Below, piece after piece: positions 50,009 through 56,217 of a DNA stretch of 64,000 nt. The position numbers were made by a program, and so were the translations under genes. Below the pieces are notes generated by a model, which had not been told where the DNA came from, ran no database searches, and saw nothing but the letters and a program-made list of their open reading frames with translations. The stretch lies in contig JAJDAD010000023.1 in assembly GCA_029262055.1 (NCBI GenBank), positions 1 through 64,000 on the forward strand. Direction: 5' to 3'. The stretch's first letter is position 1; every line of letters begins with the position of its first letter. The DNA is from Candidatus Zhuqueibacterota bacterium. GTDB taxonomy: Bacteria; Zhuqueibacterota; Zhuqueibacteria; Oceanimicrobiales; Oceanimicrobiaceae.

Positions 50009-50983
50009 TTACTCTCTCACAATGGCGTACTTCTTGATCTTAAATCGCAAGGTCGCCTCAGGAATGCCCAGTTGACGCGCGGCCTTCACCTGATTGCCCG
50101 CATACTTTCGTAGTGCCTTGCGGATAAGAAACACTTCCACATCCGAAATTGCACCATTCAGATTAGCTATCTCTAAGAAGTCCAGGGGGTTTCTCTTTAC
50201 TTCAAACGGTAGATGGTCCTGGTAGAGCTGGCCGTTACGAGACATCACTACCAGGTTGGCAACACAGTTCTTGAGCTCCTTTATGTTGCCGTGCCATTCG
50301 TACTCGAGGAGCGGTTCAAAGATCTCCGCAGGGACTGCCGGGACCTCAAGTTGGTTTTCCTCACAGTATTCTTTCAGGAAAAGCAGAAGGAGCTCGGGGA
50401 TATCTTGTCGTCGCTCTTTTAGGGTTGGCTGTACAAGACTATACTCAAAAAGAGAGAACAGCTCTCCGTTGAATTCTCCCGACCGAACCACTCTCAGGAT
50501 ACTGCTGTTGGCAGACGCAATCACCCGTGCTTTGAACGGGAGATCTGTCGCTCCTCCGATTTGCTTGTACTTGCCACGCTGTAAGATGGTGGCAAACAGC
50601 AACTGGTATTCCGGCGCCAGATCCGTAAAGTGGTCCAGGAAAAGAACACCTTCACCCACACGCTGTAACAAACCATCCGTGGCAGGCGACCCGTCGCCCT
50701 GTGTTCGACCAACGACATCTCCTTTGTCTAGCGTGTATCCGAGCGCCGCACAATTCAGGACGGCGAACGGGTATTTGTCGCGAGGGCCAAACGCATGCAG
50801 GCATCTGGCTGAGTAGGTTTTGCCACTGCCAAAATCCCCGGTAATCAGGATGTGCTCGTCACCTTTGGCAAGCCTCCTGATGGCGCGATACAGCTTTTTC
50901 GCTGCACCACAGTTACCGACGAACGGTGCTAATTGATTTTCACCGGTATGCGAACTTATTTTAGAACAACCCCCCTTGTACAC
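50009..50983 (-). CDS. AAA+ enhancer-binding-type regulator lacking the GAFTGA loop, with Fis-type HTH
   Basis: A 324-residue protein with no receiver or sensor domain. The sigma-54-activator AAA+ fold is clear: Walker A ITGDFGSGKTYSAR, then LNCAALGYTL, Walker B VLFLDH, IASANSSILR (sensor I), RRQDIPELLLLFL and the YEWHGNIKELKNCVANLV block. Two essentials are altered. The GAFTGA loop that contacts sigma-54 is replaced by TQGDGSPATD, and Walker B has His where Glu is usual. A C-terminal Fis-type HTH (NQVKAARQLGIPEATLRFKI) is intact. It probably binds DNA but may not activate sigma-54. It overlaps the membrane-protein gene by 23 bases, third in the repeat-peptide operon. Confidence 0.8.
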   Translation of the reverse strand: MYKGGCSKISSHTGENQLAPFVGNCGAAKKLYRAIRRLAKGDEHILITGDFGSGKTYSARCLHAFGPRDKYPFAVLNCAALGYTLDKGDVVGRTQGDGSPATDGLLQRVGEGVLFLDHFTDLAPEYQLLFATILQRGKYKQIGGATDLPFKARVIASANSSILRVVRSGEFNGELFSLFEYSLVQPTLKERRQDIPELLLLFLKEYCEENQLEVPAVPAEIFEPLLEYEWHGNIKELKNCVANLVVMSRNGQLYQDHLPFEVKRNPLDFLEIANLNGAISDVEVFLIRKALRKYAGNQVKAARQLGIPEATLRFKIKKYAIVRE

Positions 50984-52055
50984 GCTTCAACGCCAATAGA
51001 TCACCATTCATGGTGCGTTTGCGATATAGAGCCGAAAGATAAACAAACAGAACGGTGACGCCAAACCACAGTGCAGCTAGATTGATTTGCAGAAATAAAG
51101 CAACTTTGAAGTAGTTAAGACCAAAGAGGATAAGCAGCGTTAGAAATGCCAGCGGATTCTTCCAGCGGCCCCAATGTCCCTCCACTAAATTGAGGAACGA
51201 GACCGCATAGGGGTTCTTCCTGCGCTTTATGGGCACGCCCAGATCATTCCCTGAAACCATAATCCGGTCGTAGAATTGGCCGAATGTCGAGTAGACGTGG
51301 CTTAATCTATATGCTAGCGTGAAAAGAAAAAGCGCATGTATGCCCATCAAAAGATACTGGCTCTGCTCAAACAGCCTTATGTCATAAATCAGGCCAACGC
51401 TCTCGATTAGATCCATCAGGATAAGAAAAAAGAAGCACACCATCAGCGTGTTGATATGCTCTCCAAGAGACCGCTCATTCTTATAAAGAAACACGCCATA
51501 GAGCCAAACCATCAGGAAGGATAATGAGGTTAAAGCAAGGACAGCTTTGTAGAGCGGACTATTGTCTGATTGATGCCATAAATATTCCGCATCAACCAAA
51601 AAGGGGAAAAAGTAGTAAACCCAAAACGGCAGCACGATGGCAGCGCTGACCAGATAACAATTTCGCGTGCTGAGCTTTTCGAAAAAAAAGCGCACAAAGA
51701 TGTACGTCACGGCGAGCACGAGCAGGAACGTGACCAGGGCCTTGCGGTACTGGAAAACGGTAAACGCCATAGCATCGTCACCAAACAGGTAGCCCTTCCC
51801 CACCACCAGATTCAGAAAGCTCAGACTACTGACAAGGGAATAGGCCGCAATATTGATAAAGATCGCTTTGTTTCTCTGCTCGCGCAGAGCTATGAAAACA
51901 CATTGCAGAAAGACAAGAAAGAACAATGAACAGTTGAACCAAGATTTCCATGGCATTGCCTGGTGCGGCAAGCAGGCAAGAATAACCAACAAAAGCCCAA
52001 AGCCAAGCCACCAGTTGGCAATCTTGAAGTGTATTTTGAAATTGCTAAAAAGCAT
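50961..52055 (-). CDS. Polytopic membrane protein, putative receptor or transporter of the repeat-peptide operon
   Basis: A 364-residue protein with about ten hydrophobic helices, from GFGLLLVILACL near residue 18 to FGVTVLFVYLSALY near 340. A cytoplasm-like basic loop (VPIKRRKNPYA) precedes the last pair and a basic tail ends the protein. There are no ABC, MFS or kinase motifs and I do not recognise the family. It lies between the secreted repeat protein (69 bases upstream) and the AAA+ regulator (23-base overlap). A role in sensing or exporting the peptide is a reasonable guess from position only. Confidence 0.6.
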   Translation of the reverse strand: MLFSNFKIHFKIANWWLGFGLLLVILACLPHQAMPWKSWFNCSLFFLVFLQCVFIALREQRNKAIFINIAAYSLVSSLSFLNLVVGKGYLFGDDAMAFTVFQYRKALVTFLLVLAVTYIFVRFFFEKLSTRNCYLVSAAIVLPFWVYYFFPFLVDAEYLWHQSDNSPLYKAVLALTSLSFLMVWLYGVFLYKNERSLGEHINTLMVCFFFLILMDLIESVGLIYDIRLFEQSQYLLMGIHALFLFTLAYRLSHVYSTFGQFYDRIMVSGNDLGVPIKRRKNPYAVSFLNLVEGHWGRWKNPLAFLTLLILFGLNYFKVALFLQINLAALWFGVTVLFVYLSALYRKRTMNGDLLALKRVQGGLF

Positions 52056-52124: not shown

Positions 52125-52481
52125 CTACTCCGGCATTAATGTGGGGCGTTTTGGCTCCGGCACTGGATCCATGAAAGTCGGTCGTTTCGGCTCGGGTACC
52201 GGATCCATGAAGGTCGGGCGTTTCGGCTCCGGTACGGGGTCCATAAATGTCGGCCGTTTTGGCTCCGGGACAGGATCCATAAAATTTCCGTAAATCCGAG
52301 TCTCGGAGACGCTTGCATACACCTGTGCTGAAGTCAAAGTTGCAGTTTCGGAGCTGTTTGTCAATCCAAGGGATGCCAGTGCCTGAGGGATGAAATGTTC
52401 GCTGTCCGCGACTGTAAAGCCCACGAGCAGCAACAGATACATGAACACTGATAAAGCGGCAATGAACAGTTTAGTCTTCAT
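52125..52481 (-). CDS. Small secreted protein with four tandem MDPVPEPKRPTF repeats, putative peptide precursor
   Basis: A 118-residue protein. The ATG at 52481 follows a strong AAAGGAGAG; an earlier in-frame start lies between promoter and ribosome site and is unlikely. It begins MKTKLFIAALSVFMYLLLLV, a signal peptide ending near FTVAD. A spacer of about 40 residues rich in Ser, Thr and Ala follows. Then come four contiguous 12-residue repeats (MDPVPEPKRPTF three times, with Leu as the last residue of the fourth) and a short MPE tail. The unit is proline-rich with a KR pair. The architecture resembles multi-copy peptide precursors. It opens an operon with a membrane protein and an AAA+ regulator. 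No family is recognised. Confidence 0.75.
   Translation of the reverse strand: MKTKLFIAALSVFMYLLLLVGFTVADSEHFIPQALASLGLTNSSETATLTSAQVYASVSETRIYGNFMDPVPEPKRPTFMDPVPEPKRPTFMDPVPEPKRPTFMDPVPEPKRPTLMPE
52137..52280 (-). repeat. Four 36-bp tandem repeats encoding MDPVPEPKRPTF
   Basis: Units read on the minus strand at 52280-52245, 52244-52209, 52208-52173 and 52172-52137. The encoded residues 1-11 are identical in all four units. Nine of the twelve codons vary; apart from the final Phe-to-Leu change in unit 4, every difference is a synonymous third-position change. For example, the Pro codon at position 3 is CCT, CCC, CCG and CCA in the four copies. Confidence 0.95.
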
Positions 52482-52533
52482 TTTCACACTCTCCTTTCGC
52501 GTCAGTTTGAAGTAAACTGTTCGGGTCGCCAAC

Positions 52534-52562
52534 AATATAGCCGGTGCCGGCTATAAAGTCAA
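52534..52562 (-). promoter_or_regulatory. Promoter of the repeat-peptide operon with a palindromic operator in its spacer
   Basis: On the minus strand TTGACT (52562-52557) and TATATT (52539-52534) are spaced by exactly 17 bases, a near-consensus sigma-70 promoter. The spacer is filled by a perfect palindrome, TATAGCCGG-CA-CCGGCTATA (52555-52536), whose last bases overlap the -10. A dimeric HTH protein bound there would occlude or remodel the promoter. The start codon is about 45 bases downstream of the expected transcript start. No -24/-12 (GG...GC) sigma-54 element was seen. Confidence 0.65.
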
Positions 52563-52718: not shown

Positions 52719-54191
52719 TCATCCACCCTTGCGAAGAAGCAGGCTGACCGTTTCTATATGAGGCGTCATCGGAAACATATCAACGGGTTGCACTTCGACC
52801 AGCTCATACTCTGCTTGACACAGGATCTTCGCATCCCGGGCGAATGTGGCAGGATTGCATGAAACGTAGACGATCCTGGCCGGCGCTAAGTCGACGACCG
52901 TGTTGACCACGTCCGGGTGCATCCCCGCCCTCGGCGGATCGATCACCATCGCATCTACGGACTCCGCGGACGTGGTGGCTTGCAGGGTTAAAGATTCTTT
53001 CAGATCTCCGGCTACGAAATCCACATTTCCGACCTCGTTCAGGTGGCAATTGGCCTGTGCATCGGCAACGGCTGACTCCACCAGTTCAAACCCGACTACT
53101 TTTCGGACTTTATCGGCCAGATAGAGCGAAATGGTTCCGGCGCCGGAGTAAAGGTCAAACACTACCTGCTCGCTCTCGGGAGCGCAAAGCCGCGCAACTT
53201 CCTCATAGAGCCGCTCAGCGCCTTTTGTGTTTGTTTGAAAAAATGAATTTGCCGAAATCCGGTAAATCCTGTCACCGATCCTGTCCTTGATAAAACCCGG
53301 GCCGTGCAGAACGCGCTCTTCCTCACCGATGGCCGTGTCCGCTTTGCCCCGATTGATGTTGTGGACCACGGAGGTGATGCCAGGAAAATCACTCACGAGC
53401 CGTTCCGACAGGCTCGCAACCGCCCTGGAGCCACCCTTCGCCTCTGCTGTGACAATGTTGAGCAGCAGTTCGCCCGTGTTTTTCCCCTCACGTACCATCA
53501 AGTGACGCCAGAACCCCCGGTGATCGCTGGTGCTGTACGGCTTAAGATTGCTTTGCGAGACAACAGAGCGCACACACGCCAGAATCTCCATACTCGTGGC
53601 GGATTGCAGGAAACACTCATCCAGATCCAGGATCTTGTCATACCTGCCCCGGATGTGCAATCCCAGAGCAAAGTCGCGTGGCTTGACCAGCTCTTCACTC
53701 TGTAATTCCGCGGCCGAAATCCAGCGCAGCCGACCGAAAGAGTATTCCATTTTGTTACGATAGTAAAACTGCTCGGGAGAGGCAATGGTAGGCAGAACCT
53801 GCTGGTCGCGAAAACCACCGAGATGCTCCAGGCTTTCGCGCACCTGGGACTGTTTGTGGCGGAGCTGTGCATCATAGGACAAGTTCTGCAAACGGCAACC
53901 GCCACATTCGCCGAAATGCTTGCAGCGCGGCTCTACTTCTTCGTTTGAGTGCTTTACGACCTCGAGTGTTCTGGCTTCCGCGTACGCCTTCCGTGTGCGG
54001 GAGATTCGGGCACGAACGGTCTGCCCCGGCACAGCGCCGTCCACGAACACCGCCATGCCATCCACCTTGGCCAGGCCACGGCCACCAAATGCCAGAGATT
54101 CGATTTGCAGCTCTAGCGCAGTTCCTTTTCTGAGCCGGGCCGGTTCACCGGTGTGCCTGGCTGCTTTCTGTTCTTTATTTTCGTGTGTCAT
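52719..54191 (-). CDS. rlmD: 23S rRNA (uracil-5-)-methyltransferase, RlmD/RumA type
   Basis: A 490-residue TrmA/RlmCD-family enzyme. An N-terminal TRAM domain (LQIESLAFGGRGLAKVDG and FVDGAVPGQTV) is followed by the iron-sulfur cysteines CKHFGECGGC with the fourth in DLDECFLQS. The SAM-binding motif is FDLYSGAGTISLYLA, and the C-terminal PPRAGMHPDVV and catalytic Cys motif VYVSCNPATFARD complete the fold. It methylates uridines in rRNA (U1939 in E. coli for RlmD); family membership is sure, the exact site is not. It is a single gene with spacers on both sides. Confidence 0.85.
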   Translation of the reverse strand: MTHENKEQKAARHTGEPARLRKGTALELQIESLAFGGRGLAKVDGMAVFVDGAVPGQTVRARISRTRKAYAEARTLEVVKHSNEEVEPRCKHFGECGGCRLQNLSYDAQLRHKQSQVRESLEHLGGFRDQQVLPTIASPEQFYYRNKMEYSFGRLRWISAAELQSEELVKPRDFALGLHIRGRYDKILDLDECFLQSATSMEILACVRSVVSQSNLKPYSTSDHRGFWRHLMVREGKNTGELLLNIVTAEAKGGSRAVASLSERLVSDFPGITSVVHNINRGKADTAIGEEERVLHGPGFIKDRIGDRIYRISANSFFQTNTKGAERLYEEVARLCAPESEQVVFDLYSGAGTISLYLADKVRKVVGFELVESAVADAQANCHLNEVGNVDFVAGDLKESLTLQATTSAESVDAMVIDPPRAGMHPDVVNTVVDLAPARIVYVSCNPATFARDAKILCQAEYELVEVQPVDMFPMTPHIETVSLLLRKGG

Positions 54192-54296
54192 TTCTGATGC
54201 TATACGTTATCGCAAAACTGCTGTGAACGAGGTGCACTTGAATTACCAACAGTGAATCACGTGCAGACCCGACCGGAAGCTGTGGGTGTGCCCGGA

Positions 54297-54914
54297 CTAA
54301 TTCACCCTATAAACCCGGCGTGCTCCCAGAAACCTTCTCCGGTAATAATCCGAATCTAACTCCGCAATGCTCACGCCCTTCTTCGTGCTTGCGTGAACAA
54401 ACGTGCGGTCGCCAAGATAGATCCCAACATGGGACACAACCCTTGAACCCTGGGTCTCAAAGAATACCAGATCGCCAAATTCCAAATCTTCCGGTGCAAT
54501 GGGTGTTCCCGACCTGAACATGTCACGCGCGCGGCGCGGCAAGTCGAAGTTGACGGCTTTCCTGTAAACCGTTCCGACCAAACCAGAACAGTCCATACCT
54601 TTGGCGGTGGTTCCACCCCAAAGATAGGGTACATCCAAATAACGATCAACCTGATCCAGAATCGAGATCGCAAACGAACTCCGCCGGGAAACGTCGCCTG
54701 AGGCAGTCTTTTTACGAGCCCCCTCCGGCACGCTTGGGGCCGCGCCCGGCTTTGGCTGACGAACGTCCGGCCTGGTCGGTCTGAACTTCGGGTTCGGCTT
54801 GATTCCGCCGGTACACCCTTCCAAAAGCCAGATTCCCACCAAACATAAACAAATAACCCTGAGATTTGGTCCCAGGCTGATAAGAGTAGTTCCTAGTCTT
54901 TCCTGACAATTCAT
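54297..54914 (-). CDS. NlpC/P60 peptidoglycan hydrolase, lipoprotein
   Basis: A 205-residue protein with a lipoprotein signal (lipobox LLEGC near residue 34 after LRVICLCLVGIW). A linker of about 45 residues rich in Pro, Lys and Arg follows. The NlpC/P60 domain has the catalytic Cys in KGMDCSGLVGTVYRK, the His in VVSHVGIYLGD and the third polar residue in FVHAST. It cleaves peptide stems of peptidoglycan, usually between D-gamma-Glu and the diamino acid. It starts 28 bases after the LarA-family gene on the same strand, so they are probably co-transcribed. Confidence 0.9.
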   Translation of the reverse strand: MNCQERLGTTLISLGPNLRVICLCLVGIWLLEGCTGGIKPNPKFRPTRPDVRQPKPGAAPSVPEGARKKTASGDVSRRSSFAISILDQVDRYLDVPYLWGGTTAKGMDCSGLVGTVYRKAVNFDLPRRARDMFRSGTPIAPEDLEFGDLVFFETQGSRVVSHVGIYLGDRTFVHASTKKGVSIAELDSDYYRRRFLGARRVYRVN

Positions 54915-54942
54915 TCTGCTGTTCCCTGCTCAGGTTTTTGTA

Positions 54943-56217
54943 CTAGTCAACGCTGACCGGCAATGTCAACGAGCCGTTTGGAATGATGTAACACGTAAAG
55001 TCGTCGGCCAGACCTGCCCGGGCCATTTGCCAACCTTCTGCAACGCTGGCAGCCGGCACCATTTTCATTTTTTTTGCGAGCGAGGACTCCAATTTCGAGA
55101 CCAGGATAATCCTGACCTGACGGGCCTTGCTACGCAGCGCCAGGGCCGTAGTGCCGTTCAGCGTGAAACGCTCTGCTAGTTCGGCAACCATTGCCTCTTC
55201 ATTCTCAAAACCGAACCAGTCGAGCAAGGTAGCAGAGCCAATCCCCTGACTGCACTCAGCCAGAATCAAAAGGACACCGTTTTCTTTCACAGCCTGGTAT
55301 GCATTGTGCAAGGTTTTGTGTGCCTGAATCAAATTGATGTCTTTGGGATAGCCGCCACAACTGGCAACGACCAAGTCCGCACGTTCGGCAATTTCAATCT
55401 TGTACATGGAATCTACAAATTTGCAAGCAGTGCGGTGCGTATCGAACAGTTCGCCGGCAAAGGCACCGGCCACATCGCCGCCACTATCCAGGACTGTTTC
55501 TACCAGAAACAAGGGCAGCAGGGACTGTATCGACTCCCGCAGGTCATCCTGCACCGGATTCCCCGCAATCTCTCCGATCTTGCAGCCGGGATGAATGCCG
55601 TTGTGGGCTTTGCTGATAGTCAGGGCATGGTTTTTGGTGATGGTTTCATAGCCGGCGCAGCCGGGATTGATCAGCTTGAGGCCGCCGCCGAATCCGGCAA
55701 AGTAATGATGGACAACCGTGCCGGTGACAATTAGCTGGGCGGCGCCGGTCACCAGTTGGTTTAAGTAGACCGGAACACCCCGGCTGGTCTCAGCCACAAA
55801 CTCCAGTTCGGCATCGTTGCGGCTGTCGTGTTGATGAATCTTGACTCTTTCGACAATCTGACGGCCGACGATCTGTCTTACCTCGTCCGGGTCATTTGAA
55901 ACGTGGGAGCCGTTAGCGATCAAAAGCTGGATTTGCGCATCGCACACGCCAAGATCATTAAGATATTGCAGAAGAATCGGCAAAATAAGATCCGCCCGGC
56001 AGTTGCGTGTTTTGTCCGGAATCAAAATTGTGGTAGGCTCTTTCCGTATCGCGGGCGTCCCGTCTTTGGCGACGGCCTCGGATAGTGCCCGGCGAATCAA
56101 CTGTTCCGGCGAGATGCCGGTCTTAACCGGAGCCGGCTTCAGCTCGGCCAGGATATTGCCGGCAGGCAGACTAATTGTATGTGAAGTTCTTCCTAGGGCG
56201 AGTGAGATCTCGGCCAT
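54943..56217 (-). CDS. LarA-family nickel-pincer racemase (lactate racemase-like)
   Basis: A 424-residue protein of the LarA/DUF2088 family. Conserved segments are IPDKTRNCRAD, LIANGSHV, the central TGTVVHHYFAGFGGGLKLINPG (with the His pair and the Lys that holds the nickel-pincer cofactor in LarA) and NHALTISKAHNG. Family members racemise or epimerise 2-hydroxy acids and sugar acids. No larB, larC or larE maturation genes lie nearby, so they would have to be elsewhere. It is divergent from the glycan operon. Confidence 0.82.
   Translation of the reverse strand: MAEISLALGRTSHTISLPAGNILAELKPAPVKTGISPEQLIRRALSEAVAKDGTPAIRKEPTTILIPDKTRNCRADLILPILLQYLNDLGVCDAQIQLLIANGSHVSNDPDEVRQIVGRQIVERVKIHQHDSRNDAELEFVAETSRGVPVYLNQLVTGAAQLIVTGTVVHHYFAGFGGGLKLINPGCAGYETITKNHALTISKAHNGIHPGCKIGEIAGNPVQDDLRESIQSLLPLFLVETVLDSGGDVAGAFAGELFDTHRTACKFVDSMYKIEIAERADLVVASCGGYPKDINLIQAHKTLHNAYQAVKENGVLLILAECSQGIGSATLLDWFGFENEEAMVAELAERFTLNGTTALALRSKARQVRIILVSKLESSLAKKMKMVPAASVAEGWQMARAGLADDFTCYIIPNGSLTLPVSVD

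Follow-up and report, generated by a model that had tools for sequence, protein, structure and literature searches.

Most of what is known of bacterial peptide signalling comes from Gram-positive organisms, in which the peptides are single-copy and the sensors are fused to kinases. In the ComCDE, AgrBDCA and plantaricin circuits with their polytopic HPK10 kinases (PMC4873836, on ComD topology), a peptide gene, a polytopic sensor and a regulator lie in one operon. The alpha-factor/Ste2 pair and the KEPs (PMC9769878) combine a secretory leader and tandem identical short peptides with a 7TM receptor as partner. The 7TMR-DISM proteins (e.g. RgsP, PMC6107284) are bacterial 7TM sensors with varied intracellular outputs, and bacterial enhancer-binding proteins of the NtrC/PspF type unite an AAA+ Sigma54_activat domain with a Fis HTH; the GAFTGA loop, which contacts sigma54, defines the sigma54 activators (PMC7175178).

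We here describe a locus that shares features with all of these. It lies in a window of 64,000 nucleotides, i.e. the whole stretch of DNA analysed, from a genome of candidate division KSB1, and comprises a peptide precursor gene, a gene for a polytopic membrane protein (the proposed receptor, for brevity called the receptor below) and a regulator gene. As in alpha-factor and KEP precursors, a leader, recognised by composition only, precedes tandem identical cores under purifying selection. In contrast to those systems, the one described here is bacterial, most of its arrays are without a KEX2-type dibasic pattern, receptor and regulator are encoded in the operon, and the receptor has additional TM helices and works without a G protein. 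Unlike in the HPK10, Agr and Com circuits, the leader is signal-peptide-like, the peptide is multicopy and no ABC exporter is present; the sensor is unfused, the kinase, where one is used, being the product of the next gene, and the output is an AAA+/Fis protein or a separate PAS kinase. Compared with 7TMR-DISM proteins, there is neither a fused output domain nor a large extracellular domain, and a peptide gene is part of the operon. The system would thus work like alpha-factor/KEP precursors and Gram-positive pheromone circuits, and by the features tested it is a member of neither. A literature search, with most subscription journals outside its scope, gave no precedent for bacterial multicopy or Pro-rich pheromones, for quorum sensing in KSB1 or for peptide-sensing 7TMR-DISM proteins. 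We consider it probable that the locus encodes a multicopy secreted peptide signal that would be released and then sensed by a GPCR-like receptor.

The precursor and its repeat array

The precursor gene (52125..52481, minus strand, ATG at 52481) was recognised from its open reading frame and translation and from orthologues within the family; it specifies 118 aa, in which a short linker joins the hydrophobic N-terminus to the four FMDPVPEPKRPT copies, with LMPE-stop after them. Residues 1-26 (52404..52481, minus strand) form a signal-peptide-like N-terminus or a membrane segment, with a putative small-x-Ala site between TVA and DS, and a positive n-region followed by a hydrophobic core is common to all 40 of the 40 precursors checked. 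The pro-region DSEHFIPQALASLGLT (52356..52403, minus strand), delimited by precursor comparison, is conserved as DNSGQIPQVLSRFGLT in relatives of the family. Copies 1 to 4 of the core peptide follow on the same strand at 52248..52283, 52212..52247, 52176..52211 and 52140..52175, and LMPE-stop (52125..52139, minus strand) is a degenerate remnant past the final copy. The precursor had no match in Pfam, NCBIfam or PADLOC, and none when used as a query against genome contigs, for which its small size and variability are the probable reason; further copies of the window's peptide were not found elsewhere in the same genome. A chance open reading frame is ruled out by the orthologues of like architecture.

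The array (52140-52283), which lies in frame within the precursor and was ranked first in the window by Tandem Repeats Finder by a wide margin, consists of four units that are 100% identical as protein. At the DNA level the 36-nt units are 5-7 nt apart in each of the six pairs, and every difference is synonymous. In the register 52137-52280, used by the initial annotation, the units read MDPVPEPKRPT plus F, F, F and L, the first 11 aa being identical as claimed there; nine of the 12 codons vary between units (only those for M, E and K are constant), the first Pro of the unit uses all four codons (CCT/CCC/CCG/CCA), and the sole amino-acid change replaces the final F (TTT or TTC) by L (TTA). Summed over unit pairs there are 38 nt differences, against 42.2 +/- 4.7 expected with random codon choice, as computed with the codon usage of the array's own locus. 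The history of the array needs at least 14 substitutions, and the chance that all of them were synonymous is about 4e-9, given a probability of 0.25 that a random substitution in the array is synonymous.

Because synonymous sites are saturated, recent tandem duplication is ruled out. The further claim that the copies are old is another matter: the saturation stands, but it fits old copies as well as selection for dissimilar DNA. In the latter case synonymous diversity would guard against slippage or recombination and the copies would not need to be old, a doubtful reading that is compatible with a peptide signal and competes only with the age argument. High pS in arrays whose peptide and copy number are lineage-specific would agree with it, as would the fact that the window array is no different from random codon choice; however, it leaves the amino-acid identity of the cores beside changing spacers unexplained, and the arrays of three genomes (G035, G498, G501) have the low pS expected of young arrays.

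Constraint on the peptide extends well beyond the window. Pooled over 14 independent arrays, the cores have a pS of 0.58 and a pN of 0.006 (ratio 0.01), and 13 of the 14 arrays contain one amino-acid core only, most of them with as many DNA versions as copies. In the spacers of the six arrays analysed first, pS is 0.52 and pN 0.27, a contrast inflated in part by the core limits, which were set by visual inspection around what is conserved and are therefore partly circular. The core boundaries are nevertheless independently supported, because several arrays stop exactly at the end of the core (...RPPK, ...QPKK, ...GLPR and ...RKPK, each followed by a stop). Since core pN is tiny while spacers drift, selection maintains every single copy, and the invariant unit comprises about 8-16 residues. 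One to nine proline-rich cores stand at the C-terminus of every precursor. The selection on the peptide proposed by the initial annotation is thus well supported, and the checks it suggested point the same way: between units the dN/dS-type ratio is far below 1 with a copy number of 1 to 9, and between orthologues other genera have a different peptide (IDPTPRPP, IDPMPLPRKPK), yet DPxPxP is retained. Internally uniform arrays together with the retention of DPxPxP therefore indicate constraint and not free divergence.

It had also been suggested that each unit has an individual function, as a released peptide or a binding module. The part concerning constraint on each copy holds well; release rather than a tethered module is likely. 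If released, the 118-aa pro-peptide would be carried across the inner membrane by its N-terminus, and the C-terminal array would be cut into four identical Pro-rich 12-mers of the MDPVPEPKRPT type. Alternatively, the precursor could stay in the inner membrane or periplasm as a tethered ligand or multivalent module, its repeats binding to a partner in the cell wall or to the 7TM protein without being released, which we regard as unlikely; equally unlikely is that such a ligand reports the state of the envelope, e.g. proteolysis, and not a neighbour's signal. Several precursors (G002A, G005B, G067) indeed have a hydrophobic N-terminus with no clear small-x-Ala site, the membrane-proximal segment is conserved, and the precursor copies of group B (see below) adjoin an S41 protease. 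On the other hand, peptides that are released are typically encoded as repeated identical cores whose spacers drift or are missing, classical cleavage sites (SFA, SYA, AFA) occur in several precursors of the second phylum, and a single copy would be enough for a tethered ligand.

The membrane protein, its partner gene and the upstream region

The strongest evidence, to which the initial annotation had no access, is the presence of receptor and regulator genes in the operon and the recurrence of this arrangement elsewhere. Directly downstream of the precursor, on the same strand, lies the gene for the 364-aa polytopic membrane protein (50961..52055, minus strand), which overlaps the regulator gene by 23 nt. 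The protein has eight TM helices, a cytoplasmic basic segment with GVPIKRR and two further TM helices; by the positive-inside rule it is N-in, with alternating loop charges and a basic 51-aa segment in the cytoplasm. It has no match in Pfam at 1e-3 (the window member none up to E 1), in NCBIfam at 0.1 or in PADLOC. With E up to 1, Pfam searches over 22 homologues gave scattered single-member matches and no GPCR family, PF07695 (7TMR-DISM) matching one of the 22 weakly (E 0.013), and a profile of the 22 found no sequence relative in the PDB, the only match being SsaV at E 0.17.

An AlphaFold2 model from six sequences has eight helices, the basic cytoplasmic segment and two helices (pLDDT 70.6, pTM 0.70), and model confidence is moderate for both receptor models that were made (pLDDT 68-71). 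The modelled core (residues 28-261) superposes on GPCRs with a VIA-align Z of 14.7 (rmsd 3.7, 207 aligned, model pLDDT about 70), a value that has to be read with the caveat that helical bundles can reach Z 14. The best 50 entries listed for this core were all GPCRs or designed GPCR folds, and a separate model of a group B receptor gave a Z of 13.6 (rmsd 4.2, 199 aligned), again with GPCR-type entries only among those listed; bacterial 7TM receptor structures were absent among the matches listed, which carries no evidential weight. The best Foldseek E value, 0.018, was not significant. Because of this, and because helical bundles can score high, the GPCR-like core is suggestive of a resemblance in fold and is no proof of kinship.

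The membrane protein could instead be the exporter or processing enzyme of the peptide, since the genes are adjacent and the operon is without any other exporter. We find this very unlikely: only N41 and G86 are invariant among the 22 members and a conserved catalytic motif is absent, the gene after the 7TM protein is always of a signalling type (AAA+ or kinase), and 7TM homologues exist beside kinases with no peptide gene. As an inner-membrane receptor with a GPCR-like seven-helix core, the protein would bind the peptide from outside, and its basic segment in the cytoplasm would pass the signal on to the AAA+/Fis protein of the operon.

This third gene (50009..50983, minus strand) encodes a 324-aa regulator with an AAA+ core of the Sigma54_activat fold and a Fis-type HTH (PF00158, PF25601, PF02954), as established by Pfam and an alignment of 25 homologues. 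In contrast to enhancer-binding proteins, the GAFTGA loop is found in none of the 25 aligned AAA+ homologues, which rules out sigma54 activation by the third gene; moreover, Walker A is degenerate in some lineages and the promoter upstream is of sigma70 type. The AAA+ regulators are stand-alone, with no N-terminal sensor domain, and the membrane protein is therefore their natural input. The window's AAA+/Fis protein may alter transcription, probably including that of its own operon. The AAA+ gene is directly downstream of the receptor in KSB1 and in a second phylum, whereas in a third phylum a separate PAS-HisKA-HATPase-REC kinase gene takes the place of the regulator. In the AAA+ proteins of the second phylum that were checked, among them those of L081 and L097, Pfam finds no HTH, so that the output need not be transcription. 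The exchange of the regulator for a PAS histidine kinase makes the membrane protein look like a receptor whose output can be swapped; a change of output beside a constant pair of peptide and membrane protein is the behaviour expected of a receptor.

Upstream of the precursor, a putative sigma70-type operon promoter, TTGACT-N17-TATATT, lies at 52534..52562 (minus strand); it has 10 of 12 matches, and such sites are no commoner than chance. Its spacer contains a palindrome, TATAGCCGGCACCGGCTATA (52536..52555, perfect 9+2+9), a candidate operator in this genome only. Directly 3' of the -10 stands GACCCGAACAGT (52516..52527, minus strand), a leader or operator element conserved in precursor upstream regions: GACCCGAACAG is found directly past the -10 in f1 precursors, exact or with at most three mismatches, and is likewise placed, with 0-2 mismatches, in four genomes (G049, G056, G067, G077). 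It also occurs at the likely mRNA 5' end upstream of seven loci (L003, L004, L005, L010, L019, L078, L079), spanning classes of the phylum. The element may be the operator of the regulator or an RNA leader. A wider regulon sharing GACCCGAACAGT was not found in this genome, since, apart from the operon, the degenerate pattern GACYCGAAYAGW has a single match, within a deacetylase-like CDS. The precursors of family f7 and its relatives (L024, L025, L027, L089) are preceded by a leader with GTCAATT...GGAGAATTGAC, an inverted repeat that overlaps the ribosome-binding region, making translational control possible. Further upstream, rlmD, nlpC/P60 and larA (52719-56217 in the window) precede the group A precursor in conserved synteny at four loci (L044-L047). 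Between rlmD and the regulator, neither the window nor its group A relatives have an exporter or processing enzyme.

Recurrence in three phyla and paralogous pairs

The relatives that bear names comprise a Caldithrix sp. MAG and MAGs from candidate division KSB1. Precursor orthologues of the same family carry five copies of LIDPTPRPPK, two of LIDPMPLPRKPK, eight of IDPTPRPP with 9-aa spacers or one of FIDPVPEPKRPP, and in each case the membrane protein is next, followed by the AAA+ gene wherever the sequence extends far enough. A profile search with the membrane protein gave 35 loci in 28 of 82 KSB1 genomes, and homologues in 12 of 39 genomes of the second phylum, 16 of 40 of the third and one further genome (G082); most other genomes sampled had none. 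At 44 of the 59 testable receptor loci, a tally made by reading through ORF lists, the gene directly upstream is a small ORF whose N-terminus is signal-like and whose C-terminus is rich in Pro (KSB1, 29 of 34; second phylum, 11 of 12; third phylum, four of 12; G082, none). Proline accounts for 30% of the last 20 residues and 6% of the middle (30 precursors). Arrays are present in 14 of the 44 precursors; examples are four copies of ALSPVLPPQPKK and six of ALTPVVPPQPGK in the second phylum, and eight or nine of IWNPIPPPGLPR and five of LNTWNPLVPPGIPPE in the third. The ATWSPVVPPKIP array of G497 (L126) has an apparent frameshift and goes on in another frame, which could be assembly error or decay.

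The peptide gene does not adjoin the receptor at five KSB1 loci, in G421 and G082, and at eight kinase-linked loci after glyS, and the receptor family can therefore manage without a neighbouring peptide. In the third-phylum families f275 and f276 (L131-L136, L138, L139) receptor homologues follow glyS and are accompanied by a PAS kinase, with no peptide gene.

Three genomes, the present one included (contig C10), harbour a second, diverged system, group B, in which the peptide is single and reads RDPMPPP.(K/R)KPKPRR in all copies. The B receptors are 57-59% identical among themselves, whereas identity to the A receptor encoded in the same genome is 37-41%, so that peptide type follows the receptor clade, not the host. 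Directly upstream of group B precursors (L010, L048) there is a gene for a PDZ/S41 CtpA-like protease, a candidate processing enzyme, seen only before B copies.

Sequences of PRPP type are reminiscent of the Pro-rich antimicrobial peptides of insects, which can likewise come from multicopy precursors. By analogy, the peptides (PRPP, KKPKPRRKKRKRR tails) could be bacteriocins that kill relatives, with the polytopic protein providing immunity and the third gene regulation. The PRPP-type sequences and the very basic tails that end the B peptides fit such a role, but a large number of cores carry no net positive charge, being neutral or acidic (NIPVPPPPYPEP, MFPGPADTS), the operon has no exporter, an AAA+ protein or a kinase is coupled to the membrane protein, and PADLOC matched neither precursor nor receptor. 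An immunity protein kept with a signalling partner over three phyla would be unusual, and we regard this explanation as very unlikely.

A candidate peptide-signalling system

Since the same arrangement occurs in three phyla, the preferred reading is that it looks like an undescribed bacterial system of peptide signalling. In its widest form, as a bacterial hormone system of the neuropeptide or alpha-factor type, with a stand-alone GPCR-like 7TM receptor, swappable outputs, three phyla and duplicated, diverged pairs, we hold the proposal to be about evenly poised. If true, the pairing of a multicopy pro-peptide with a 7TM receptor of its own gene would represent a novel type of circuit, and an unnamed membrane family of mostly uncultured phyla would gain a function. 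The many natural ligand–receptor pairs, including paralogous pairs within one cell, would allow a test of peptide specificity and of receptor fold evolution and, if the GPCR-like fold holds, the system would bear on the repeated origin of peptide-sensing 7TM bundles.
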